From contig LUZA01000006.1 of the NCBI GenBank assembly GCA_001603455.1, positions 1 to 63,516 of the forward strand: 63,516 bases of DNA. The letters run 5' to 3'. Position 1 is the first letter of the stretch; each line of letters starts with the position of its first letter. The position numbers and the translations under genes were made by a program. The DNA is from Bacteroidales bacterium Bact_09. Its GTDB lineage: Bacteria; Bacteroidota; Bacteroidia; Bacteroidales; UBA932. Shown here one piece after another: positions 2,099-44,537 of the stretch. The notes under the pieces were generated by a model. That model saw only the letters and a program-made list of their open reading frames with translations, was not told the origin of the DNA and ran no database searches.

Positions 2099-2639
2099 TA
2101 GCCCGGTACACCTCCCGTCCAAAACAATGGATTAGGGGTTCTTTCAGGAATTCAAACACCCTTACTTTTTTCTTTTCTCCCTGTAAGCGCGCCGTACTGC
2201 ACAAATGGCACTGGTGGTAATTGAGCCCGATTGTATCGCCTGTAAGTTTTTGTACCCGGATGGGATATAGCCAGCACGATATAGGTTTACGCAGGGAAGA
2301 GATTCCTTCATTCCAAGCCTTTTCTATGGCACACATACAATTCCCGTCACGAAAGAAAGCATAGGCGCATTCTTTCCCTTCTATCAGCGGAGTCACGGCA
2401 TCGTCTTCAAAGTCGTTGACCCAGGGGCCCTGTATCTCTACTGCACATACGCCTTTGCGTTGCATGTAGGGCATATACTGCTCCCATTCCTGTTCCAGCA
2501 ACCGGCATTCTTCAGGGGTAAGGGGTGCACCGCTGTCTCCCTCCACGCAGCAGATCCCCTTGCAAACAGGCAGGTCGCAGCAAAAATGCCCGGTCAGCAC
2601 CCCTTCACTGACAATGATCTTATCCGAAACTATGATCAC
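2070..2639 (-). CDS. DUF3109 cysteine-rich protein
   Basis: Matches the DUF3109 family common in Bacteroidota, of unknown function. The N-terminal CCDLPVCKGICC segment plus later cysteines (CAYAFF, CMCAIEKAW, CWLYPIRV, CHLC) make a cysteine-rich protein, reminiscent of the zinc- or iron-sulfur-binding YkgJ-like proteins. That binding role is inference. The start is GTG at 2639; its last bases overlap the TGA stop of the upstream lipoprotein gene (GTGA), so the two are translationally coupled. The 3' end overlaps hemW by 29 bp on the opposite strand. Length 189 residues is normal for the family. Confidence 0.85.
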   Translation of the reverse strand: MIIVSDKIIVSEGVLTGHFCCDLPVCKGICCVEGDSGAPLTPEECRLLEQEWEQYMPYMQRKGVCAVEIQGPWVNDFEDDAVTPLIEGKECAYAFFRDGNCMCAIEKAWNEGISSLRKPISCWLYPIRVQKLTGDTIGLNYHQCHLCSTARLQGEKKKVRVFEFLKEPLIHCFGREVYRAIKEAADNPG

Positions 2640-3112
2640 TGCACCGGTGCCGGATAGGGGTCAAGTTTCAGGTCCTCTCCGTATGTATCTTTCAATTCCT
2701 GAATAAAGACATTAATGGCCGCCATGGCTTTACCCAATTCTGCGATTTCTTCCTGCGGGATGGAAGTATCTTTAATATATTCCATTAACTGCACTGTCTG
2801 GGAAGTATGTTTTACATTGTAGTTATACCACATTTCAACATACTGATAGTCTATTCTGACAAGCTCTTCCTGCCGTGAGGGAGCAAGTGAATCAAAATCC
2901 ACATCTGTAAATTCCTTTGCTTTCGCATGCATTTTCACACATTCACGGGCCAGGGTGTTTGCGCTTTCCATTGCTCCCCGGACAAATTCCTTTAATTCTG
3001 TGTTATCTTTCAAGGCTTTGGACATTGTTAGGTCAAGCTGAGGGACATTGGAGGGTGTATTGCAGGAGATAAGGCCTGCCACCATCATAACAAATAAAAT
3101 AATCTTTTTCAT
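2636..3112 (-). CDS. Small lipoprotein, function unknown
   Basis: 158 residues with a classical lipoprotein signal: a short hydrophobic stretch ending LISC, with Cys17 as the lipidated residue. The mature part is mostly charged helix (for example VRGAMESANTLARECVKM) and looks like a small helical-bundle envelope lipoprotein. No family is recognised. The first gene of a two-gene unit with the DUF3109 gene, joined by a four-base overlap. A -7 box (TATCTTTG in minus sense) lies 20 bases upstream, immediately after the terminator of the preceding minus-strand operon. Confidence 0.75.
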   Translation of the reverse strand: MKKIILFVMMVAGLISCNTPSNVPQLDLTMSKALKDNTELKEFVRGAMESANTLARECVKMHAKAKEFTDVDFDSLAPSRQEELVRIDYQYVEMWYNYNVKHTSQTVQLMEYIKDTSIPQEEIAELGKAMAAINVFIQELKDTYGEDLKLDPYPAPVQ

Positions 3113-3144: not shown

Positions 3145-3171
3145 AAAACCGCCCCTAAAAGGAGCGGTTTT
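3145..3171 (-). terminator. Rho-independent terminator after the beta-barrel gene
   Basis: On the minus strand an 11-base arm (AAAACCGCTCC) pairs with GGGGCGGTTTT through a loop of about five bases, with one U-G wobble, followed by more T residues. On the plus strand the same position would be a C-A mismatch, so the hairpin is better formed for minus-strand RNA. It lies 21 bases after the stop of the gene ending at 3192. Confidence 0.85.
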
Positions 3172-3191: not shown

Positions 3192-4067
3192 CTAAAAACG
3201 GAATCCTATTTTCAATTGCGGAAAGGCAAAGAATTTGAATTGCATTTCATATGCATTGTATTCTTGGCCGTCTGCGTACATACGGACTGCTGAATAGTAA
3301 TAATTGAAAGGGCGTACCTCAAGAGCTATGTTCATGCCCGGCAGGAAGTTGTATTCCACGCCGGCCGTGATCGCTCCGGATATTGCATATGCTTCGCCTG
3401 CACGTCTGTCCAGCGCATAGAGTTCAAGAGGATCTGTCTCTCCGTCTTCCACAGGTATCTCTATCCCCGTATAGGGCAGGTACGCCTGTACTCTTGCATG
3501 TTGGAAACCGCCCAGTACACCGATGTAAGGAAACAGCCTCCCGTTGCAGTTGTTGAAATAGTAGTCCGCACCGACAGTTACAAGGTATTTGTCGGTCAAC
3601 CTGCCTTCAACCCACTGAATGCCTCCCTGGTTTAAAAGTCCCCGGGAAGAACGGGTAAGACTGCTACTCTCAAGATCGATGCCTTCAATATAATCACGCT
3701 CGGGCGTAACGTCTATTTGCATGGCAAACATGGCGTTCACTGCAAAGCGGTTGGTGACGAAGAATTTTCCCTGGATCCCTGCAATGTTGGCGATCGAATT
3801 GTTATTCAGACTGCCCATCTGCAGGTAATAACCCACGCTTTTATCTGTCGGATCAATGCCCAGTTCTGAGCCCGGCATATAGCTGGGCAGCAGGGGAGTT
3901 AAATTGTCCAGATAGTCAAAGTATAATCCTCCGCCCAACACTGCCGAGACCTGAAACTGTCCCGCACGTGGAGCATATACAGCACTTCCGGAGCGTTCTG
4001 CCGGTTGCGCCTTAAGGGACGCAACCGTTAGAACAGCTATCAGAAATATGCTAAGTTTTTTTATCAT
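3192..4067 (-). CDS. Outer-membrane beta-barrel protein partnered with coiled-coil lipoprotein
   Basis: An N-terminal signal peptide (MIKKLSIFLIAVLTVASLKA, cleaved after KA) precedes about 270 residues of alternating aromatic and polar beta-strands. It ends in KIGFRF, the C-terminal Phe signature of outer-membrane barrels. Size suggests an 8- to 10-strand barrel with a long extracellular loop around residues 205-235 rich in Asp and Glu. The ATG at 4067 is preferred over an upstream TTG at 4076. The upstream gene ends only 25 bases away and shares the promoter at 7200-7229; a strong terminator follows. It resembles the barrel family I remember as 'BT1926-like' in Bacteroides, encoded beside the BT1927 S-layer protein, but I cannot verify that here. 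Confidence 0.8.
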   Translation of the reverse strand: MIKKLSIFLIAVLTVASLKAQPAERSGSAVYAPRAGQFQVSAVLGGGLYFDYLDNLTPLLPSYMPGSELGIDPTDKSVGYYLQMGSLNNNSIANIAGIQGKFFVTNRFAVNAMFAMQIDVTPERDYIEGIDLESSSLTRSSRGLLNQGGIQWVEGRLTDKYLVTVGADYYFNNCNGRLFPYIGVLGGFQHARVQAYLPYTGIEIPVEDGETDPLELYALDRRAGEAYAISGAITAGVEYNFLPGMNIALEVRPFNYYYSAVRMYADGQEYNAYEMQFKFFAFPQLKIGFRF

Positions 4068-4091
4068 TATACGCAAATCTTATCCGTATTG

Positions 4092-7000
4092 TTATTGATA
4101 GTTTTCCAGAAGTTTGGCTCTGATACCTTCCAGGATAACGAGTTTCTGCTGCAGGCTTTGAATTTCTTCCAGCCAGATATCAATCTGTGCCTGGTACCTT
4201 GCGGCTTCGTTCTCTATCAGACCCATAAAGCTGGGCATGGGCAAACCTTGTTCATAAAGAGCAATGGCTTCCTCGATCCTGCGGAGTTCATTCTGTTTTT
4301 CCATGAGGTCATGCTTTGCACGAGACCATGCTTCGAGCAATCCTTCGTTGGCAATATTGCCTCCGTTGTGTGCCCACATAGCCTGCTGGATCAGCCACTG
4401 GTATTCTTCGATCCACAATTCGTAGATTTCAATATTACCCATTACCCATTCACCCTTAACTGGATCATAGTAGCCACCGATGGCAAGCAGTTCTTCTACG
4501 ATGTCGTCCAATTCTGCCTGGAGTGCATCTCTAAGGGCTTTGGCTTCCGTATACAGTGCAAGCTGGGCATCGTACAATGCCTGGATCTTATCAATGAGAG
4601 CGGCATATTCGCCATTCTTCACGCGGTTGTAAGTATCCAGGTAAGCCTGGTAGTCGCGGGTCTGCCAAATAGCATAGAAGTAATGGCCTTCGCCGTAGTT
4701 ATTTCTTTCACTCCACAACCAGAGCGGCAGGTCACCTGCCCATTCTGACCACTGTTCGCCGCAGTATTCGCCGGCATTCAGCAGGGCGGCATATGATACG
4801 TAGAGGTCACATTTTTTGTTCAGGTAAGTAATGTCAAAATCAAGTGACGGGCTGATGGTGGTACGGCCCATTCCGTCGGGACCTTCCAGAACAAAGAAGA
4901 ACTGTGTAGCATCTACAGGTCTGGGTTGTGTTTCGTCCCAATCCTTGTCATCATCATATACAGGAGGATCGTACTTGGACGGCGTTGCATAAATTTCTTT
5001 AATTGCCGGTTTTTCAGTTACTGCAGCCAAGGCTTGCGTTCTGGACCAGTCGACAATATCAATTACTTTTCCTTTGCTGTCGTAAACGTATTTTTTGGCT
5101 TTCCACTCCCTGTCAAAAGGATCGAACATGGCTGTTTCCATGGCTCCCAGACCTTCTACGGCATTGTAGTAAGCCTTAATGGCATTTTCAATGGGTTTTG
5201 TAGAAACGCCTACCATATATGCTTGATAAGCAGCGCGGTCCAATTTGCCAAAGAAATCAAACAATACTTGTTCTGCCGCATCTTTATAATCGGCTGCGTT
5301 AATGGTTATAACCGTACCTCCGTGGGGGTTTTCGAGTCCAATTTCAACTTGTCTGTCTTCGAACAGCCAGTACAGGAACAACCATACATACCAGTCCTGT
5401 TTGGTCAGCTCTGTGATCTTTTTATTGGAATTGGCATACACTGCACGCATAATATCACCGTATACCACAGGTGTGGGTTTGTAGGTCCATGCGGTAGCAT
5501 GTTCCCAGAACGGGGGATATCCTTCGGGATGTGTTCCGTCCATCAGGCCCTTGAGCTGGGTGATGATGGCATCCATCTGGGTGGGTGCATTTATCAGACC
5601 TATGATGGTGTTCAGTGCGTTGATTACAGCACCGGCATTACCTTGAAATATGAAATTAGCCAAAGTGCCGGCGTTAAATTTAATACCGCCCAGTACTTCC
5701 GAGATGTTAGCACTTCCCGGTACGGTCAGTGTGCCTTCATCCAGCCAGCCATCCAGATATTCCATGAACAGGCTAATCAGACTATCGGCTGCAAAATACA
5801 TATCGTCATAGGTGTTCAGGTGTACCCTGTAGTTGGCCATCTGAGTATCCCATGCGGTCCAGGCATTTACCCATGCAGTGTAACGGGAACCCACATGGCT
5901 GCCGGAAATACGTGCTTCATCATAATATTTCTGCCAATTATTCCAATTGGTTTTATACTTGGTAGTAGCATCATTGGCCTGTTTTTGTTTTGCTTCGAGG
6001 TTACGTTTGATAACCCCGGAATCCTGATCTTCAAATTCGGCGCGGGTGTCTTCGATAACGCGCATATCGCGTTTCATCATATTGAACATGCTGTTGGCTC
6101 CTGTCCAGGGAGCGGTAATGGAATATGTTCCGTTAACAACATGGATGTTGGGATCGTCACCTTTGTCGCTGAATACATTAGCAATAGAAACTTTCCGGTT
6201 CTTGGTCAGCGCAGCGTTGGCGTTATCGAGTGCCTGATGGTCAAACAGCAGCCATTTTTCCTGCAGTTTAATAAAATCGATTTCCATTTCTGCGATCTCT
6301 GCACGCAGAGCGGTGATCACGTCCTGGAATCCAGCTATCAGTTCGTCAAATTCTCCGTGGTAAGCATTATAAAGGGCTTCGTAAGCCTCTACTACGCCGG
6401 TCAGGTATTCGATCTGACATTCCAGTCTCATCTTGTCACGTTGCATGTGGAGGAGGGCATGTTCAACGTCTTCCGGATAGGTAACGTTCACATACCATTC
6501 GTATGCAGTTTTGGCATAGTTCAGTTCTATTTGTGCCTCGGCCAGATCCAGGATAACGCCTTTGATCTGGAACAGGATGGCGTCCAAAGCATTCAGGAGA
6601 TCCTGAGCCAGTGTGGCGGCATTTGCGATCTTCCATTGTTCAAAAGCAAGCAGGGCAGCTTCATAAGCCTGCATAGCCTGAACCATCTGTGCCTGCATCT
6701 GGGCAATTACCAACTGGTAGGCGGCAATGGCGGCATCGGCTTCTGCGCGATAAATCTCGAGTTCAATTTCCATTTTCTCGATTTCTTTAGCCCATGCTTC
6801 TTTATGAAAATCTGTCAAAGCTTTTTCCCATTCAACTTGTGCCTGAATGAGGGCGGCTTCGGCTTCTATTCTCTTGGCCTGGGCAGCTACAACGGCTTCC
6901 TGGGCCTTGATATAACTGGCCTGGGCCTGGATCAAAGCGGCGTTGGCAGCTTCTACCTGTACCTTGGCCTGTACAAGACTGGCTTGTGCGGTCAGCAAGG

Positions 7001-7115
7001 CAGCCTTTGCATTACGCATGGCTTCAATGCCGGGGCTGGGCTCATTCTTAATACAGCCTACGGCGAGTACACCCAGTACTAAAAAGGCTGCACTCCATTT
7101 CAAAAATTTTTTCAT
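4092..7115 (-). CDS. Giant coiled-coil lipoprotein, possible surface-layer or stalk protein
   Basis: 1007 residues. The signal peptide ends AVGC with Cys21 as lipidation site. From about residue 38 come nine near-perfect Ala/Gln heptads (such as AALIQAQ, ASYIKAQ, EAVVAAQ), then further long helices to about residue 310. A mixed central region (about 320-770) is rich in Trp, Tyr and Asn. The C-terminal 150 residues are again Leu/Ala/Glu heptads. N- and C-terminal helices flanking a globular middle suggest an antiparallel helical stalk with a head, anchored in the outer membrane. It is co-transcribed with the beta-barrel gene 25 bases downstream. Function unknown; the pairing and size recall the BT1927/BT1926 surface-layer pair of Bacteroides thetaiotaomicron, which is inference from memory. 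The 718-residue open frame on the opposite strand is a shadow. Confidence 0.8.
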   Translation of the reverse strand: MKKFLKWSAAFLVLGVLAVGCIKNEPSPGIEAMRNAKAALLTAQASLVQAKVQVEAANAALIQAQASYIKAQEAVVAAQAKRIEAEAALIQAQVEWEKALTDFHKEAWAKEIEKMEIELEIYRAEADAAIAAYQLVIAQMQAQMVQAMQAYEAALLAFEQWKIANAATLAQDLLNALDAILFQIKGVILDLAEAQIELNYAKTAYEWYVNVTYPEDVEHALLHMQRDKMRLECQIEYLTGVVEAYEALYNAYHGEFDELIAGFQDVITALRAEIAEMEIDFIKLQEKWLLFDHQALDNANAALTKNRKVSIANVFSDKGDDPNIHVVNGTYSITAPWTGANSMFNMMKRDMRVIEDTRAEFEDQDSGVIKRNLEAKQKQANDATTKYKTNWNNWQKYYDEARISGSHVGSRYTAWVNAWTAWDTQMANYRVHLNTYDDMYFAADSLISLFMEYLDGWLDEGTLTVPGSANISEVLGGIKFNAGTLANFIFQGNAGAVINALNTIIGLINAPTQMDAIITQLKGLMDGTHPEGYPPFWEHATAWTYKPTPVVYGDIMRAVYANSNKKITELTKQDWYVWLFLYWLFEDRQVEIGLENPHGGTVITINAADYKDAAEQVLFDFFGKLDRAAYQAYMVGVSTKPIENAIKAYYNAVEGLGAMETAMFDPFDREWKAKKYVYDSKGKVIDIVDWSRTQALAAVTEKPAIKEIYATPSKYDPPVYDDDKDWDETQPRPVDATQFFFVLEGPDGMGRTTISPSLDFDITYLNKKCDLYVSYAALLNAGEYCGEQWSEWAGDLPLWLWSERNNYGEGHYFYAIWQTRDYQAYLDTYNRVKNGEYAALIDKIQALYDAQLALYTEAKALRDALQAELDDIVEELLAIGGYYDPVKGEWVMGNIEIYELWIEEYQWLIQQAMWAHNGGNIANEGLLEAWSRAKHDLMEKQNELRRIEEAIALYEQGLPMPSFMGLIENEAARYQAQIDIWLEEIQSLQQKLVILEGIRAKLLENYQ

Positions 7116-7199
7116 GCATCAAAAATTTTAAGTTAAACAAAAGTTTTTAGAAGTTATCTTAATCAGAATATTACTTTTCGGCTATGATATATATTAATG

Positions 7200-7229
7200 C
7201 AAAGTTAAACGATAATTTGAATTCGCAAA
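7200..7229 (-). promoter_or_regulatory. Bacteroidetes-type promoter of the coiled-coil lipoprotein operon
   Basis: On the minus strand TTTG (plus 7226-7229) is followed after 18 bases by TAACTTTG (plus 7200-7207), matching both the -33 TTTG and -7 TAnnTTTG elements of Bacteroidetes sigma-ABfr promoters. Transcription would start near 7193, giving a leader of about 80 bases before the ATG at 7115. It is one of the two best-formed promoters in the window. Confidence 0.65.
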
Positions 7230-7268
7230 ACTTTTTTTGTTGAAAACTTGTTGGAAACCCTTGGGTTT

Positions 7269-9806
7269 TCAAGGTTCGGAAGGCTCTCCGGGCAGGGAAA
7301 GCTGGTTGGTCCCTTTCTGAGGCTGCATATTCTCTTTAAAATTCCACGCTTCAAAATGTGGATGATCAAGTATTTCCCGGGGAATCATGCCGTTGAGCAG
7401 GTTGTTGCGGATAATGAACGTTGTCAGGTTCTTCAGTCCGGTGGCATATTGCGCGGGAATGTTGTATCCCAGCAGCAGGAAGTTGGTCAGGTTGCAATTT
7501 TCCAGATTAATGATTTCCAAGTTGTTCAGATCTTTCCATGAAATGGGAAGCCAGCCTGTAACACCGCTGTTGTTCGACAAGTCAATTTCTTCCAGGTACG
7601 TTAACACCGACAGCGGGTCCTTCTCCTGCCCGTCCCCTACAGATCCTTCCAGCCGGCCATTGGACAATACCAATTTTTTCACGTACCGGGCTCCGTTTCT
7701 GATGGCCGATTCCAAAGTCACTCCGGCCCAGGTATCGGCCGGGAGTTGCAGGTTCCACACATGGGTATCCCTCCAGTTGTCCCCGCGCATGTTCCTGTGG
7801 AACCGGACCAGAGCTGTGCTGTCTCTTTGGGCAATGCGGGCACCGCGCTGTGTAAGGGTGAAGGCCTTGTAAACCTGATCTGTACCTGCTTCCCGCACGT
7901 ACAGCACAGTACTGCGGGTGCTGAGGGTTGTAGCGGGCAGTACGTTAAAATTCCACGTTGTTTTCCTTCCTTCGACTATTTTTGTTGTATTGACCAGCCA
8001 TCCGGCTTCTGTCATGTATTCGGTGGCGATATTGGATTCGACCGTAAGGGTAAAGGAGTCTCCTTCGTTATGCAGGATCTCCGGTGCATTGACAGAAGCG
8101 TTGACAAAAACGGCTTCCGGCGCCTGGTTGATCACCAACGAAACACGGAGAGTACCCCCGGTGCGGGCCAGTTCTATCTTGGAGGATCGCGCTGTGGTTT
8201 GCATATTGGGCTGTACGGTAAAGGTAAGATTACCGCCATATTCCCCCCTGGGTTCCACTGCCAGTCCGGTCACCCACGAAGGATGGGAAAGGACACCCCA
8301 GGAAACGTTGGCCTGTACAGGAATGCTGTATGCCGCGCCAGTTGCAGGGACTTCCAGGGTGTCAGGATCACAAATAATGTATGGCTGTGCTCCTTCCTGG
8401 CGTATGGTCCTGGTGACCACAAGAGGTTCCTCATCGAAGGTTGTCACCGTGAGCTGCGCCTGACGCGCTTCTGTACGGGTATTGGGTTGTACCTGTAAAG
8501 AAAGTGTCTTTGTTTCCAGTGCTTTTGTCTCCACAACCGAAAGCCACTCTTCGGAAACCGAAGCCTTCCACGGCACATTGGAAAGTACGGGAATGGAGAG
8601 GGTCCCTCCCGCTGCCTGTGCCTTTGGTATGTTTTCCTGACCTGGTAGATATAATTTTCTTTCTCCGGCAAGCTGTGTTATGGAGATGGTTTTTACATAG
8701 GGTCCGTTTTCCTGAACAATATCCAGAATCGTCGACCTGGGCTCTACATCATCATTCCTGTTTATGGTTATACGCAGTCCGTTATCCAGGTGTATAACCT
8801 GCGAAATCCAACCTGCAGTTTTTGAAAGATCTTCCTTCCAGTTGAAATTGGACTGTACGGCTATGGTGTAAGTTCCTCCTGCGGCCGGAATGTCTTGCAG
8901 AACGGACGGATCCAGTATGGCATGGGGTTCGGCCCCTTCCTGGGTTACGGTCACCACGGATTGCCCCAGGTTGGGATGTCCGGGAGTCGATATGACCAGG
9001 GATCCCTGCCGGGTTTCCACACGTGGATTGGCATCCACCATGAAGACGCAATCCTGTGGCTGCATCAGGCGTGTTCCCGTAAGGTGGATCCAGGATGTTT
9101 CCGTTGCGGCTTCCCATTCAATGTTGGACAGTACCGTCACCTTGTACTGGCCTCCCTGGGCTACTGCCGTTATGGTATTTGTCTCTAATTCTATGGCGGG
9201 GCTTTCTCCGTCCTGCAGGATCGTGAAGACAGCGGAGAGTGACCCGTTCTTCTGGGTAAACTGTATGCGGCAAGACCTGCCTTCCAGGCTTGTATTCTGC
9301 TGTACCGTGAAAATATACCTCTTTGTGGTAACGGTCTTTGTTTCCTTATACGACACCCAGTCCTGTTCGGGAACAACGTTCAGTTCCACATTGGTGGTAA
9401 CACCCACCGAGACCGTATCGCCAGCGGCTTTCACCGTTCTCTGGGTATTGTCAAGTGCCAGTTCCGGCACTTCACCTTTCTGCGTAACGGTAATTTCCCT
9501 GCGTATCTGTTCCCCGACAATGAAAAAGGAAGATTGGCGGGCATCAAGACTTGTATTGGGCAAGGCCGTGACCATCATGTTCTTGTCACCATATCCTTTC
9601 ATGGGATTAATGGTTATCCAGGTATCTGATATTTCTATGGTCCATAAAAAATTAGAGGATATGGAAAATTCACGGGCTTGGCCGTCAGCTGGAAAATCGA
9701 TCTTTGTGTACGGAGTGACCAGGACTTCGTCGTTCCCGGGGCGGATGCACCCGCACAAAAACAATGCGAGGGCAGGAAGGGTCATCCGTTTTATTATACG
9801 TAACAT
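7269..9806 (-). CDS. Lipoprotein with seven BACON domains and C-terminal leucine-rich repeats
   Basis: 845 residues. The signal ends LCGC with Cys20 lipidated, followed by an acidic DE pair typical of surface-exposed Bacteroidales lipoproteins. Seven tandem BACON domains of about 90 residues fill residues 30-660. Each carries a SNxxW or similar core strand, a central Trp and a terminal TITQxG-like strand (ITVTQKGE, VTVTQEGA, IRQEGAQ). The C-terminal part (about 665-845) has the GDNW...TWAGV cap found in Bacteroidetes LRR proteins, then LRRs such as LEEIDLSNNSGVTGWLP. BACON domains often mediate carbohydrate or mucin contact or act as spacers; binding here is inference. The gene lies 39 bases after the M16-like gene and is probably in its operon. 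It is a domain-level paralogue of the protein at 40878. Confidence 0.85.
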   Translation of the reverse strand: MLRIIKRMTLPALALFLCGCIRPGNDEVLVTPYTKIDFPADGQAREFSISSNFLWTIEISDTWITINPMKGYGDKNMMVTALPNTSLDARQSSFFIVGEQIRREITVTQKGEVPELALDNTQRTVKAAGDTVSVGVTTNVELNVVPEQDWVSYKETKTVTTKRYIFTVQQNTSLEGRSCRIQFTQKNGSLSAVFTILQDGESPAIELETNTITAVAQGGQYKVTVLSNIEWEAATETSWIHLTGTRLMQPQDCVFMVDANPRVETRQGSLVISTPGHPNLGQSVVTVTQEGAEPHAILDPSVLQDIPAAGGTYTIAVQSNFNWKEDLSKTAGWISQVIHLDNGLRITINRNDDVEPRSTILDIVQENGPYVKTISITQLAGERKLYLPGQENIPKAQAAGGTLSIPVLSNVPWKASVSEEWLSVVETKALETKTLSLQVQPNTRTEARQAQLTVTTFDEEPLVVTRTIRQEGAQPYIICDPDTLEVPATGAAYSIPVQANVSWGVLSHPSWVTGLAVEPRGEYGGNLTFTVQPNMQTTARSSKIELARTGGTLRVSLVINQAPEAVFVNASVNAPEILHNEGDSFTLTVESNIATEYMTEAGWLVNTTKIVEGRKTTWNFNVLPATTLSTRSTVLYVREAGTDQVYKAFTLTQRGARIAQRDSTALVRFHRNMRGDNWRDTHVWNLQLPADTWAGVTLESAIRNGARYVKKLVLSNGRLEGSVGDGQEKDPLSVLTYLEEIDLSNNSGVTGWLPISWKDLNNLEIINLENCNLTNFLLLGYNIPAQYATGLKNLTTFIIRNNLLNGMIPREILDHPHFEAWNFKENMQPQKGTNQLSLPGEPSEP

Positions 9807-9845: not shown

Positions 9846-12317
9846 TTACGGATTTTTTGAATAAGACGTATCTTCGGGGTTATTTGTTGCACCGGAAAGC
9901 ACTACCCTGGAGGCATTCCCGTATTCCATGATCTGCCTCACGAAATCCCTGATCATGGCTGTATCTGTCTGTTTCAGCATGTTATCAAAGCCTGTGACAA
10001 AATCCCTGCCACTGCGGCTGTACAGGATAAGCATCCGGCAATGGTATTCCGGGTCGGACAGGCTGGTTTGATGTTCTACCAGCAGGGAATGACGGGACTG
10101 TTCCAGCTGATCGACAGCTGGGCCGTAAGCTGCCAGGTCGGCCAAAACCTGTTCCAGCCGGTGTTCATTGTAAGCCATATCTGTTGCCGGTGAAGAAAAT
10201 CCTATGTATAGAAAATAATGGCCCCTGGGATAATATTCCAGCGAGGATTGTACGTAAACAGAGCGGTCAGCAGCCTGAAAAATAAGCCTTTCCAGCATTC
10301 GCAGCAAAACGTACTGTTCCAGTGTATATGGGCAGGGACCGGAATAAACGCGGGCGGCTTTGCTTTCCATGGCCGGATTGGGAAAAGCTATCGTATGTTC
10401 ATGCAACCCCTTGCGGATGCCCTCGCGTGGGGGCACAGGTTCGGCAGTACGTAATTTACGATTGTTTATGCCTGCAAGGAATTCCTCGGCCAATATCACC
10501 AGGGTATCGGGACAAATATCCCCTGTGCATACGAAGTCAAATCCCCTGGGTGTTGACGGCTTTCCGGGAGAACGCCTTTCAAAAAGCATGGTGCGCAGGG
10601 TATCCAGTAAAATAGTCCGGGACAGATCCCGGGATGATTGTATGTTTTTTTCCCTTTCCTTCCACATATCCTGCATCTGGGCAGGATAGAGCAGTAACCT
10701 GTTGATCTGGGACGAGGCCTCCCGCAGGAAGGTGCGCAGGGAATCGGGCGTTGTGGCATGTTTTAACAGAAGCCCCTGGGTTGTTTGTTTCCACAACAGC
10801 GGGCCCCTGCCTTTCCGGAACTCTTCCTGGGGTACAAAAGGCATGAAAACCCGGGGCTCCCTTTCCACTGCGGCAAAATGGATTTTTCCCCTGGAAAGCG
10901 TATCGGGCCTGATGTAAAGCAGTGAACCGCCGGACAATTGCCAGACCGAAACGCCGTCATGCGCCGTGTTCATCTGCCGCACCACCCTGCCCCTTGTGGA
11001 CGTATCGGCCGGGAATGTGTCACGCTTGTTTTCCGTACCTGGGATAGGTTCTACCCAAACTTGGCGGAAAAGACGCCCGAGGCTGTCAATATTTACCTCA
11101 GGAATTACCTGGGTGCGTTCCAGGCTGTCGAGCTGCAGCCTCAGATCAATGTCCAGGATCCTTGCCGCCAATTCAAGCAGGCGGGTGTCTTCAAAGGGGA
11201 ACAGCAAGCCGGAGAGCTCCCTTGCCAGGCGAGCCCTTTCTTCCAGCAGCTCCTCAGGAATGAACCGTACAGGCTCTATCAGGCTGTCCGCCGCAGAGAC
11301 TGCCCGGTAAAGCGTAAAGCCAGGAGGAGAAGAAAGCAGAACGCCTCTAACATAACGGTTTACATGATCTGTAGTGACATAGTTTACCATCTCGTTAACA
11401 AAGCGGTAGCGCCATGTGGCAGATGGGACCGGAATTCCGTCAAAAAAATGCCGGATACATTCTTGCAAATAATGGTCGTTGGTCTGTACGTTCCTGCTCT
11501 CATAACGCCAGCGTTCCCTCAGAAGATAATCCCTGCGGGCCAGCTGGTATGTTTCCTGGGAAACACCATTACGGGCCAGACTGGCGCATTGGCCGGCAAG
11601 ATTGCAGAAAGAAGCTGTCAGGCTGTCGGGATGTCCCCGCGAGGCCCAAACCATGTTATTATCTGTATAGGCACAGGAGGGATATTCCAGGTCCAGGTCC
11701 GCCGCATACTCCATAACGTGGCGCATGAAATCCATAACATAGTACTCACTTCCGTCACGCATTTCTCTGGGAAGTACGGGCAGGGGAAAGGATATTTCTA
11801 TGCGGGGATATCCGTCCTGCAAGACAAGGGGCATCGGTTTTGCCGTGAAAGCACGGGCTGCCAGCGCCGAATCTAGGCCCTGCGGAACTTCCTGCGCCTG
11901 CATAATATCTACCGAAGCAGGCAGGGCCGATAATTCCCGGCGGACAAGCAACTCAACGGAGTCTGCCTGGAAGGGTCCCACCAGAATGACTCCCTGCAAA
12001 TGCGGCCTGTATTTACCGGGAGACGTTACGTGCTGTTCCCTCAGGGCTCTGACCAAAAGGGCAACGCCGTCCCCGGCACCGGAAGGAGAAGTAAGTACCC
12101 GGCGGAAAAACGGTGTCCTGTCGGGTTTCTGGACAATGGCAAAATGCATCTGTCCTTTGGGTAGCTCGTTTATATAAATATAGTATGTAAGCCCGTTGGG
12201 AAGCTGACCGGTACGGAACCGGCTATCCGGAGGAACAGCAGAAGCAGCCGGAGCAGAACCTATAGCCGTTACCACAACAAATAACATAATAATTAACGAC
12301 AAACCACGCAATTTCAT
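9846..12317 (-). CDS. M16 peptidase-like protein lacking the active-site segment
   Basis: The exported protein (signal peptide ending near ASA at residue 27) has M16/pitrilysin-type landmarks: LPNGLTYYIY at the start of the first domain, VILVGPFQADSVELL (the usual beta-strand before the second helix region), FDGIPVPSATWRYRF, and a second half beginning VSVWQLSGGSLLYI. The HxxEH zinc motif and downstream Glu are absent. Only about 46 residues separate QK (64) from VILVGPF (110), where active homologues have well over 100, so the catalytic stretch seems deleted rather than mutated. At 823 residues it is shorter than PqqL-type enzymes (about 930). No frameshift or stop interrupts it, so it is probably a functional pseudo-enzyme. 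ATG at 12317 is chosen over TTG at 12326. A -7 box lies at 12346-12353. Confidence 0.75.
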   Translation of the reverse strand: MKLRGLSLIIMLFVVVTAIGSAPAASAVPPDSRFRTGQLPNGLTYYIYINELPKGQMHFAIVQKPDRTPFFRRVLTSPSGAGDGVALLVRALREQHVTSPGKYRPHLQGVILVGPFQADSVELLVRRELSALPASVDIMQAQEVPQGLDSALAARAFTAKPMPLVLQDGYPRIEISFPLPVLPREMRDGSEYYVMDFMRHVMEYAADLDLEYPSCAYTDNNMVWASRGHPDSLTASFCNLAGQCASLARNGVSQETYQLARRDYLLRERWRYESRNVQTNDHYLQECIRHFFDGIPVPSATWRYRFVNEMVNYVTTDHVNRYVRGVLLSSPPGFTLYRAVSAADSLIEPVRFIPEELLEERARLARELSGLLFPFEDTRLLELAARILDIDLRLQLDSLERTQVIPEVNIDSLGRLFRQVWVEPIPGTENKRDTFPADTSTRGRVVRQMNTAHDGVSVWQLSGGSLLYIRPDTLSRGKIHFAAVEREPRVFMPFVPQEEFRKGRGPLLWKQTTQGLLLKHATTPDSLRTFLREASSQINRLLLYPAQMQDMWKEREKNIQSSRDLSRTILLDTLRTMLFERRSPGKPSTPRGFDFVCTGDICPDTLVILAEEFLAGINNRKLRTAEPVPPREGIRKGLHEHTIAFPNPAMESKAARVYSGPCPYTLEQYVLLRMLERLIFQAADRSVYVQSSLEYYPRGHYFLYIGFSSPATDMAYNEHRLEQVLADLAAYGPAVDQLEQSRHSLLVEHQTSLSDPEYHCRMLILYSRSGRDFVTGFDNMLKQTDTAMIRDFVRQIMEYGNASRVVLSGATNNPEDTSYSKNP

Positions 12318-12341
12318 ACGGCACAATTTATGTGATCAGTA

Positions 12342-40877: not shown

Positions 40878-43800
40878 ATGAAAAAGATTGTATCACTACT
40901 ACTCACGGCAACTGCACTGATATTCGTGACATGTTGCAAACCAGAAGTTCCGTATATTGAAGTTAGTCCCACAAATGTCACCTTCCCCCAGGAAGGCGGT
41001 ACACAGACCATCAACCTTTCTACCAACAGCATGTCATGGACAGCTTCTGTATCGGGGAAAGGGTTCTCGGTATCACCCACCTCTGGTGCGGGAAATGCCA
41101 CATTGCAATTAACGGCAGCAGCCTCTGTCTCGTCAAGTGACCAGACCGGTACACTTACTATCAAGAGCGGCACCATGCAGGCTACTGTTACCATAACCCA
41201 AAGTGCACGCAATACGCTCATTGTTAACGGGAACAATACCGTAGAAGCCTCCGGCGGCACATATACGCTCACCCTGCAGTACAATACAGCCTATACGGTA
41301 GAAATAGAAGAACAGGCCAAATCGTGGATCCAGTATACAGGGACTAAGGCGCTCTCTACGGCAACCCTTCAATTCCTGATCGCTCCCAATCCAGGGTCTG
41401 AACGTTCCGGAAAAGTATCTGTCCGGGACAATGCCGGGATTGCCCAGACACAGATTTTCACTTTTAATCAGAAAGAGAATCCGCTGCGAACTGTGCTGAT
41501 GGATTTGTATAATCAGTTGGACGGGAATAACTGGGTTGCAGCGAAAAAAACCAATTGGAATACAGCAGAACCTATTGAAACATGGGGTGGGGTAACCATG
41601 GAGGAAGGTAAGATAACCCAACTGAACCTGAGCGGATTTGAACTAAACGGACAACTCCCCTCCAGTATTGGAACGCTGACCGACCTTACACGGCTGAACA
41701 TAGGTTCCAATCCAAATCTGACAGGACCGCTTCCATCCACCGTTGGAGACCTGGTGAACCTGGATGCCCTAATGGCCGTAACTACCGGACTGGAAGGGCC
41801 GCTGCCCGCCTCTATGGGAAACCTGAAAAAACTTACCAACCTGCAATTAAGCAAAAATAACATAAGTGGGAGGATCCCTGAGGAATGGGGCGGAATGGAG
41901 GCTCTGAAAAATTTTGGCATGTTTAATACTAAAATTTCCAGCCCACTGCCTAAAACGATCTTTGAAAACTGGAAACACATAGGATCATTGCTGCTGCACA
42001 GCAATCCTAATCTTACCGGTCCCCTGCCCCCCCAGCTGGGACAGATGGAAACCGACAACACTCTTTTCAGTGTACAAATGCACAATTGCAATTTTGAAGG
42101 AGGGATCCCTGAGGAATGGGGCGGAATTCCTGCCGTTTCCAAACAACTGCACCTTTATGGAAATAAGCTGACCGAACCTGTTCCCCTGTCCATTCAGAAC
42201 CATCCATCCTGGACAGAGGACAAGTGGAATAAATGGAAAGATGCCGGCATACATTTCATCCGGACCCAGCAAAACGGGGTGTTCCTGGAGCTGGAACAGG
42301 TCCCCGATGCCCAGCGTGAGCGTCTTATGGCGCTGTATAACGCCCTGGACGGGCCCAACTGGATCAAGGGAAAAAACTGGAACACAGAAGAAGATGTTGG
42401 CACCTGGGAAGGGATCACCGTTACCGATGAGGCAATAACCGGCCTTAACCTGAGCGGATTTGGGCTCAAAGGACAGTTGCCACCCGAAATCGGCGAACTG
42501 ACTGCCCTTAAATCCCTCAACCTGGGCAATAATCCCACCCTGACCGGACCATTGCCCAAGGAAATAGGGAACCTTGTAAACCTGACGATACTGATGGCCG
42601 TAACCACCGGACTGGAAGGTCCGCTGCCTAAGGAAATGGGGAACCTGAACAAACTTACCAACCTGCAATTGAACAAAAACCAGATCTCCGGTACCATTCC
42701 CAAAGAATGGGGGGGAATGACAGCTCTGATCAATTTTGGGATGTTCGACACAAAGATATCGGGCCCCATTCCCAATGAGATCTTTACCGGGTGGAAAAAT
42801 ATTGCCACTTTCCTGATGAACAACAATCCCAACCTGACCGGACCGCTGCCTGAAGGTCTGGGCAATATGACCACTACACAGACGCGTTTCAATATCCATC
42901 TGTATGAATGTAATTTCACTGGCAGCATTCCGGCCTCATGGGGAAATATTCCGGCTGTGTCGTCACAATTGCGCATATACGGCAATAAGCTGACCGAACC
43001 CGTACCGGCAGTTATCGTAAACCATCCATCGTGGGACCAGTGGAACACTTACAAGAATACAGATATCCATTACATCCGCACCCAGCAGAACGGGATTTTT
43101 CTGGACCTGGAAGGGGTACTGCCCACGATCAGCCAAGTTACAGTAAAAGAATTGTTATACAATAAAATAAGTGTCTCTGCCGAGGTGCTCAAACAAGGCA
43201 GCCATGAAGTAACGGACCGTGGATTTGTTATCAATACCACTCCCCGGAGGGTTGGTTCCGGGGCGGGGGTTTTCACAACCGATTTCACCAACAACATTGA
43301 CGAAAATACGACTTATACCATAAAGGCCTATGCCACCAGTCAGGCAGGAACGGTTTACGGACCTCAGATATCCGTCACCACCCCGGTATATAACGAGTTG
43401 AATCTTGTCTTAAGTAACAACGACGGGAATCCTGTGGATTATGCCGATGTTTACCTCAAACGCATAGGCGATCAACCTACAACAACTCCCCAGGCAGTCA
43501 GGAGTTCAACGAAAAGTGCAATCCCGTTTATCAGAGGAAGTTCCCGGGACCAGGTGCTGCTTTCTGCCGCGGCATGGCTATCGTCTTACCTGAAACCCTA
43601 CCAAAAGAGCATTCGTGAAAACCTGGAGATGCTCCGTTCGGGAACAGACCCGGTCCGTAACACCAGAGGCACCATGAGCCGGCAGAACACGAATCAGGAT
43701 TATGATTATATGGTGAAAAGCTCTGCCGAGGGTGCAGTTCAGATAAAAAACATCGTTCCCGGAACATATGCCGTCAGGGTAACGGGATACGGTTATGTAA

Positions 43801-44537
43801 AGGACTTCTATACTACCCTGATCATACCTGAAGGAATTACCGGATTAACGGTAACTGATATACCCCCGTTGTCTGTTACCTCCAAAACGTTGTCGTTATT
43901 CAATCCTAACGTGGCAATTAAACCGTTCTCATCACCTGCGGCTAACGACAATCTGATGGTATTGGTCCATATGTCGGCCGACTATGTGAAGGACTGGAAA
44001 GGCAAGATCCTAGAAAATATCATGCTCTGTCCCCTGGATACGACCTCTTCGGTTGTCATTGCTGCCAAGAATACAGACCAGCTGGAGCAGATCTACGAAA
44101 CATTCCTGTCGCTAACCGATGAGAAGGGCAATCCCAAACAACCGTCCGACCCGATGCAATTCCTCACTTTCATAGAGGAATTGTCAAAACGCATTATTTT
44201 TGTTAAGAACATCCATTCGGGACAAACAAACCTGATTTCACAAAATTCGGCCAACTTTAAAAAGATTTTGGTAGAAGCTTTGAAAAATTCGGGAAATTGG
44301 AATCTTGTTAAAAATTTCATCACAGAGACTTATAATGTACAGCTCCAGGAAGGCGATGCTGTTATCCTCAATATGATCATCCGGCAACAGGGTACAACGC
44401 CCGTTCTGATGACAGACGGGAACGGGCCTGTCCGGGAAGGAGGGAACCTTTTGATCCTGTCCTCGGACAGCAACGTGGATACGCTGAACGACCTGGGCTA
44501 TAACGGGAACTGGCACCTGGGTATTACCGTAAAATAA
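40878..44537 (+). CDS. Giant surface lipoprotein: two BACON domains, duplicated plant-like LRR modules, unknown C terminus
   Basis: 1219 residues. The lipoprotein signal ends FVTC (Cys19). Two BACON domains cover about 24-110 and 112-201. Two LRR modules (about 203-475 and 480-750) each start with a GxNW...TWxGxT cap (LDGNNWVAAKKTNW; LDGPNWIKGKNW), carry NPNLTGPLP-type repeats and close with IRTQQNGxFLxLE. A fibronectin-like domain (about 757-840) follows with EVTDRGFVINTTP, then a carboxypeptidase-regulatory-like beta-sandwich (about 843-1000) interrupted by a Ser/Arg-rich insert. The last 220 residues are not recognised. A surface adhesin or glycan-contact protein is likely (inference). Starts 35 bases after mrp; the tail overlaps the NSS transporter gene by 14 bp. 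Confidence 0.85.
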   Translation: MKKIVSLLLTATALIFVTCCKPEVPYIEVSPTNVTFPQEGGTQTINLSTNSMSWTASVSGKGFSVSPTSGAGNATLQLTAAASVSSSDQTGTLTIKSGTMQATVTITQSARNTLIVNGNNTVEASGGTYTLTLQYNTAYTVEIEEQAKSWIQYTGTKALSTATLQFLIAPNPGSERSGKVSVRDNAGIAQTQIFTFNQKENPLRTVLMDLYNQLDGNNWVAAKKTNWNTAEPIETWGGVTMEEGKITQLNLSGFELNGQLPSSIGTLTDLTRLNIGSNPNLTGPLPSTVGDLVNLDALMAVTTGLEGPLPASMGNLKKLTNLQLSKNNISGRIPEEWGGMEALKNFGMFNTKISSPLPKTIFENWKHIGSLLLHSNPNLTGPLPPQLGQMETDNTLFSVQMHNCNFEGGIPEEWGGIPAVSKQLHLYGNKLTEPVPLSIQNHPSWTEDKWNKWKDAGIHFIRTQQNGVFLELEQVPDAQRERLMALYNALDGPNWIKGKNWNTEEDVGTWEGITVTDEAITGLNLSGFGLKGQLPPEIGELTALKSLNLGNNPTLTGPLPKEIGNLVNLTILMAVTTGLEGPLPKEMGNLNKLTNLQLNKNQISGTIPKEWGGMTALINFGMFDTKISGPIPNEIFTGWKNIATFLMNNNPNLTGPLPEGLGNMTTTQTRFNIHLYECNFTGSIPASWGNIPAVSSQLRIYGNKLTEPVPAVIVNHPSWDQWNTYKNTDIHYIRTQQNGIFLDLEGVLPTISQVTVKELLYNKISVSAEVLKQGSHEVTDRGFVINTTPRRVGSGAGVFTTDFTNNIDENTTYTIKAYATSQAGTVYGPQISVTTPVYNELNLVLSNNDGNPVDYADVYLKRIGDQPTTTPQAVRSSTKSAIPFIRGSSRDQVLLSAAAWLSSYLKPYQKSIRENLEMLRSGTDPVRNTRGTMSRQNTNQDYDYMVKSSAEGAVQIKNIVPGTYAVRVTGYGYVKDFYTTLIIPEGITGLTVTDIPPLSVTSKTLSLFNPNVAIKPFSSPAANDNLMVLVHMSADYVKDWKGKILENIMLCPLDTTSSVVIAAKNTDQLEQIYETFLSLTDEKGNPKQPSDPMQFLTFIEELSKRIIFVKNIHSGQTNLISQNSANFKKILVEALKNSGNWNLVKNFITETYNVQLQEGDAVILNMIIRQQGTTPVLMTDGNGPVREGGNLLILSSDSNVDTLNDLGYNGNWHLGITVK
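41482..43122 (+). repeat. Tandem intragenic duplication of an approximately 820-bp LRR module
   Basis: The two LRR modules of the lipoprotein gene (about 41482-42300 and 42313-43122) align end to end. Near-identical DNA is visible, for example at 41780 and 42603 (ACCGGACTGGAAGG core). The amino-acid landmarks LTGPLP, TTGLEGPLP, EEWGGM/KEWGGM and YGNKLTEPVP occur in the same order in both. The high identity suggests a fairly recent duplication and a potential recombination hot spot. Confidence 0.8.

Follow-up and report, generated by a model that had tools for sequence, protein, structure and literature searches.

In a 63,516-nucleotide stretch of DNA from Bacteroidales bacterium Bact_09 (contig LUZA01000006.1; hereafter designated the window), we found two adjacent genes, encoding a 1007-residue lipoprotein and a 291-residue outer-membrane barrel, that are related to BT1927 and BT1926 of Bacteroides thetaiotaomicron. 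BT1927 forms a surface-layer (S-layer) lattice on the cell and confers resistance to phage and complement (PMC12548429); the lattice is also described in PMC12578637, where BT1926 is regarded as a putative anchor or secretion partner of BT1927. This homology makes it most likely that the window genes build a BT1927-type coat held by lipid and barrel. We regard the two genes as probably a BT1927/BT1926-type module for an outer-membrane coat, S-layer-like and barrel-anchored, with a promoter that does not invert. The locus comprises the following elements.

4092–7115, minus strand: S-layer-type lipoprotein gene (open reading frame of 1007 residues; BT1927 homology by profile comparison with controls)
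7056–7115, minus strand: signal peptide, lipoprotein residues 1–20 (from sequence; lipobox LAVGC; near identical across the genus)
7005–7055, minus strand: lipid-bearing Cys21 with the conserved mature N-terminal motif CIKNEPSPGIEAMRNAK, the proposed barrel-docking segment
6822–7010, minus strand: nine Ala-led heptads, residues 36–98, in the same register family-wide
3192–4067, minus strand: BT1926-type eight-stranded outer-membrane barrel, 291 residues (36% identity to Bacteroides faecis BT1926; PF16961; strand model)
3786–3935, minus strand: long loop 1 of the barrel, residues 45–94, between model strands 38–44 and 95–103
7200–7229, minus strand: –33/–7 promoter, TTTG-N18-TAACTTTG (from sequence; aligned in nine species)
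7116–7144, minus strand: AT-rich leader before the lipoprotein start codon, almost invariant in the nine-species alignment
3145–3171, minus strand: intrinsic terminator, 12 pairs followed by a T run

Relationship to the BT1927/BT1926 locus

The locus of B. faecis MAJ27 (L029/L066) served as the BT1927 reference and was found by means of a published inverted repeat (PMC12118408) and a quantitative PCR (qPCR) primer for BT1927 (PMC12548429). A search for the primer pattern over 393 Bacteroidales genomes gave no match; the inverted-repeat search led to a Bacteroides-type genome, and the primer then matched one genome of that genus exactly. Both BT1927 qPCR primers match the B. faecis open reading frame, with 0 and 2 mismatches, and its product scores 1518.8 (cut-off 1300) in the NCBIfam family NF053619, 'BT1927 family outer membrane S-layer protein'. 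The primer matches and this score indicate that the reference is a true BT1927 locus, in which the lipoprotein gene is followed, after 26 nt, by that of a 288-residue barrel.

The barrel gene of the window likewise lies downstream of the lipoprotein gene on the same strand; the gap measures 24 nt, against the 25 stated in the initial annotation. The window barrel aligned with B. faecis BT1926 at 36% identity over 279 residues (E 2e-56), and both exceed the cut-off of PF16961 (OmpA_like), the window barrel with an E value of 2.2e-13. Between the two lipoproteins, the first 49 residues were the only significant BLASTP segment. Comparison of the lipoprotein profile with the BT1927 profile gave a probability of 98.3% and a score of 128 over 471 columns, as against 12–27 for reversed or permuted templates; after removal of the first 60 residues the values were 89.6% and 62.5 (controls, 15–25), and the mature N-terminus alone gave 97.3%. 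The lipoprotein showed no match to NF053619 at E values up to 1. Since the profile match stands above its controls and the equivalog is missed, the lipoprotein is, as judged from sequence, a remote homologue of BT1927 that lies outside the NCBI equivalog. Collectively, these comparisons showed that both proteins are related to their BT1927/BT1926 counterparts, a link that the initial annotation had drawn and for which profile similarity of both halves, found here, had been set beforehand as the test.

The 1007-residue lipoprotein with nine heptads behind its lipid anchor was as previously described. The anchor is Cys21 in the lipobox LAVGC, and the heptads at residues 36–98 are in register (AKAALLT AQASLVQ AKVQVEA ANAALIQ AQASYIK AQEAVVA AQAKRIE AEAALIQ AQVEWEK). 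The central region, also described as aromatic-rich, is indeed richer in W/Y than the N-terminus. In the lipoprotein nothing exceeded the Pfam cut-offs, and a PDB sequence search with it returned only chance coiled-coil matches. Weak matches to TscT (Pfam) and to a type III rod family (NCBIfam) fell below cut-off and were taken as chance. The 291-residue barrel was also borne out: its AlphaFold2 model, of moderate confidence (predicted local distance difference test, pLDDT, 64; predicted template modelling score, pTM, 0.61), has eight strands and is closed, and its best structural matches are OmpA/OmpW-like, a PDB sequence search with the barrel giving no match. Loop 1 comprises 50 residues and has LLP and GSLNNNS in common with BT1926; published modelling of BT1926 gave a radial pentamer arranged about loop 1, with a chamber at its centre that is hydrophobic (PMC12228718).

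A two-gene module across Bacteroidales

The search for barrel homologues took in 200 genomes from the family of the window, of which 60 had a match, together with 388 from the order and 385 from the phylum. In the genus of the window the barrel occurs in 12 of 13 genomes, essentially as a single copy, and the phylum search gave only marginal matches outside Bacteroidales. Strong barrels, defined by E values below 1e-20, numbered 64 distinct sequences, 58 of them with a complete upstream gene. A motif-bearing lipoprotein lies directly upstream on the same strand in 54 of these 58, as against none of seven weak barrel matches. These results show that the two genes form one module across Bacteroidales, with near-obligate pairing. 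The four exceptions are two short lipoproteins, one split frame and one orphan barrel (L099).

The lipoproteins share the consensus start C-[IVL]-x4-E-x2-[GS]-[IV]-x2-[LMI]-R-x-A-K-A, followed by Ala heptads; about 40 lipoproteins, all of them encoded immediately ahead of a BT1926-type barrel, align over this motif without gaps. Among 39 distinct relatives, Ala occupies 66% of the positions +16+7n from the lipid Cys, two other phases giving 3% and 5%. Beyond the motif the proteins diverge, mature lengths ranging from about 320 to 1456 residues. Within the genus, the first 60 residues have a mean pairwise identity of 90% and most later 50-residue blocks 30–65%; median identity to the window protein is 86% for the barrel and 60% for the lipoprotein. 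An anchored coat would be expected to show this combination of a conserved anchor and a changing exterior; neighbouring genes vary too. Very rapid evolution of the lipoprotein was considered and toned down, the small lipoprotein encoded downstream of the barrel (2636–3112, minus strand; no family above cut-off) being the most variable neighbour, with a median identity of 54%.

Two of the exceptional loci deserve a separate description. The orphan barrel (L099:5247–6053, minus strand), of the BT1926 type, is the second in its genome, which contains a complete pair as well, and the gene upstream of it encodes a non-lipoprotein that looks by eye like a pyruvate-ferredoxin oxidoreductase. In a Tannerellaceae pair (L065:37–2104) the lipoprotein is spread over two frames, through either a frameshift or a sequencing error.

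As for the surroundings of the window pair, small lipoproteins similar to the product of 2636–3112 are likewise encoded downstream at the more distant loci L060 and L061. Directly upstream of the pair, and syntenic throughout the genus, lies the gene of a lipoprotein with six BACON stretches (7269–9806, minus strand), which also has a weak leucine-rich-repeat match below the Pfam cut-off; a second large open reading frame at 40878–44537 (plus strand) looks BACON- or leucine-rich-repeat-like by eye. Also retained ahead of the pair across the genus is a gene for an 826-residue protein (9846–12326, minus strand), whose only match, to the M16 peptidase inactive domain, stays below threshold (E 0.0012).

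Promoter and the question of phase variation

The promoter and the hairpin terminator reported earlier were both present. The promoter consists of TTTG (7229–7226), an 18-nt spacer and TAACTTTG (7207–7200), and is conserved in nine species of the genus. The leader at 7116–7144 is more invariant in these species than the promoter itself and may be an element of mRNA stability or translation.

In Bacteroides orthologues, perfect inverted repeats of 22–23 bp, 256 bp apart, lie upstream of the lipoprotein gene, and an integrase adjoins in most. Among the 56 loci with enough upstream DNA for a repeat search, perfect repeats exceeding 14 bp were found in only four, all from Bacteroides; the others gave 14 bp or less, and shuffled controls 10 bp or less. 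Inverted repeats at the window locus reach 9 bp at most, as against the 22–23 bp of Bacteroides, and the Bacteroides repeat motif is absent from the window genome. No tyrosine recombinase or integrase adjoins the window locus, the tyrosine recombinases of the genome being on other contigs only. Moreover, promoter and leader had one orientation in all nine species, as seen by comparison between species. The promoter inversion around 7116–7268 envisaged in the initial annotation thus found no support, and the promoter of the window pair gives no sign of switching.

A degenerate AT-rich inverted pair of 26 nt (73%) flanks the promoter at 7136–7161 and 7213–7238, with a conserved 9-bp core, AAAAGTTTT/AAAACTTTT, that recurs in several species and bears no sign of recombination. 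This pair was rejected as a switch for now, because shuffled sequences give repeats of up to 10 bp and the orientation is constant.

In a barrel tree, the four invertible loci formed one clade (support 100/100) nested among fixed ones, requiring one change of state; the direction of that change would be from fixed to invertible, in a tree rooted by midpoint only and with some long branches. Since recombinase and repeats were found only in the nested Bacteroides branch, and the genus of the window has neither and keeps one orientation, phase variation looks derived and the fixed form widespread.

Proposed coat, alternatives and related systems

In the proposed mechanism, the lipoprotein would pass through Sec, receive its lipid at Cys21, travel to the outer membrane and there be flipped to the cell surface, where its conserved N-terminal 20–80 residues, comprising the lipid, the motif and the Ala-heptad helix, would dock on the small barrel. 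The barrel, presumably as an oligomer, would serve as anchor and spacer in the membrane, and the long variable remainder of the lipoprotein, helical at either end and rich in aromatic residues in between, would pack against adjacent molecules to give a surface layer, which may screen the cell from phage and other attack. Surface exposure is likely, and a regular lattice would be carried over from BT1927 by homology. Given the fixed promoter, the cells may therefore wear the coat all the time.

Several observations weigh against this assignment. In addition to its place outside NF053619, the lipoprotein shows no similarity to BT1927 in its C-terminal 200 residues by profile comparison. The structure models cover single chains only, and that of the lipoprotein is weak (pLDDT 55.5, pTM 0.32), usable solely for the run of long helices at both ends. 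Because of this weakness, the C-terminal helical return of the initial annotation holds as secondary structure only: helices are predicted at residues 836–878, 893–918, 926–955 and 970–1006. The residues after the lipid Cys, IKNEP (C-I-K-N-E), are one acidic residue short of the published surface-export signals of Bacteroidota, C-X-K-(D/E)2 or CS(D/E)2; relatives have acidic residues at +3 to +6, for example CIDTDE and CVKNEE. By codon usage the lipoprotein gene ranks 70 of 223, with no sign of unusually high expression, in a test of low power that barely separates ribosomal genes from background.

The barrel might, instead of a structural anchor, be a device for export, flipping its cognate lipoprotein to the surface or delivering it there; the conserved N-terminus would then be the export tag that it reads. 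One barrel per lipoprotein, in the same operon, and a short motif beside the lipid would suit such a device; against it, a closed eight-stranded barrel, as predicted here, would have no room for a folded passenger, and most other surface lipoproteins have, to our knowledge, no private barrel. The literature leaves 'anchor or secretion partner' undecided, but general lipoprotein flipping in B. thetaiotaomicron is independent of the BAM dome (PMC12578637) and BT1926 is modelled as an oligomer around loop 1 (PMC12228718), and we regard the export role as unlikely. Somewhat less probable again is that the lipoprotein, carried by the barrel, forms a fibre, adhesin or stalk on the surface and no continuous lattice. 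Mostly helical proteins of about 320 to 1456 mature residues would suit extended fibres as well as a lattice; however, BT1927, the only characterised homologue, forms a lattice (PMC12548429; PMC12578637), the Pfam and NCBIfam scans revealed no adhesin or carbohydrate-binding domain, and the stalk of the initial annotation gained no evidence of its own. A periplasm-facing coiled-coil tether from the outer membrane to the cell wall, to which the lipid anchor, the long Ala-heptad helices behind it and the non-canonical export signal could point, is very improbable in view of the surface location of BT1927 (PMC12548429), the acidic residues of the relatives, the strongly variable distal part beside a conserved anchor and a Pfam scan of the lipoprotein that gave no peptidoglycan-binding domain.

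The missing switch and the shared anchor motif are the points of interest of the pair, the coat system itself being already known from BT1927. It is plausible, at nearly even odds, that the non-switching coat is the older and widespread form and that the BT1927 layer is a late offshoot in which the promoter became invertible. In this reading all such coats, irrespective of size and outer sequence, would share a lipidated N-terminal Ala-heptad helix docked on a small barrel oligomer, and the genus of the window would wear its coat constitutively. Where a curiosity of one species had been known, the analysis finds a module that spans the order, with a defined gene pair and a short anchor motif in common, and it suggests that phase variation was added onto a pre-existing coat system. 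It also makes the attachment of Bacteroides S-layers, by way of an anchor or a secretion partner, testable through the motif of about 17 residues or the N-termini. The named close relatives of the window organism are metagenome-assembled Bacteroidales such as UBA1374, WOFB08, DTU002 and ADurb bins, several of which we take to come from anaerobic digesters; the host is probably an uncultured relative of gut Bacteroides from a biogas digester. Coats are predicted on Bacteroidales of anaerobic digesters, with consequences for phage sensitivity.

Among known systems, the S-layer of Tannerella forsythia is likewise a protein coat in Bacteroidales, made of type IX secretion substrates (PMC4175972), whereas the window protein is a lipoprotein with no match to a type IX sorting domain in Pfam or NCBIfam. 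The Pfam family PF16961 takes in the barrel only from roughly residue 85 onwards, and its entry gives neither a function nor a partner. Closer are the eight-stranded, oligomer-forming barrels described with PopA (BT1926, CHU_0007, Tanf_04855 and HMPREF9455_00941), whose oligomer has a lipid-trapping chamber (PMC12228718); the window barrel, known from a single-chain model, is homologous to BT1926 and shares the closed eight strands and the long loop 1. From the BT1927 locus of B. thetaiotaomicron, represented by its B. faecis orthologue, the window differs in its fixed promoter without an adjoining tyrosine recombinase or long inverted repeats, and in a dissimilar C-terminal part of a lipoprotein that falls below the NF053619 equivalog. 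The two loci agree in gene order and short gap (24 nt in the window, 26 nt in the reference), in a barrel of the same Pfam family with 36% identity, in lipoprotein similarity over the first approximately 470 residues with the same N-terminal motif, and, as calculated from sequence, in the mass (about 112 kDa for the mature window protein, 100 kDa for BT1927) and isoelectric point (4.6 and 4.7, respectively) of the lipoprotein.

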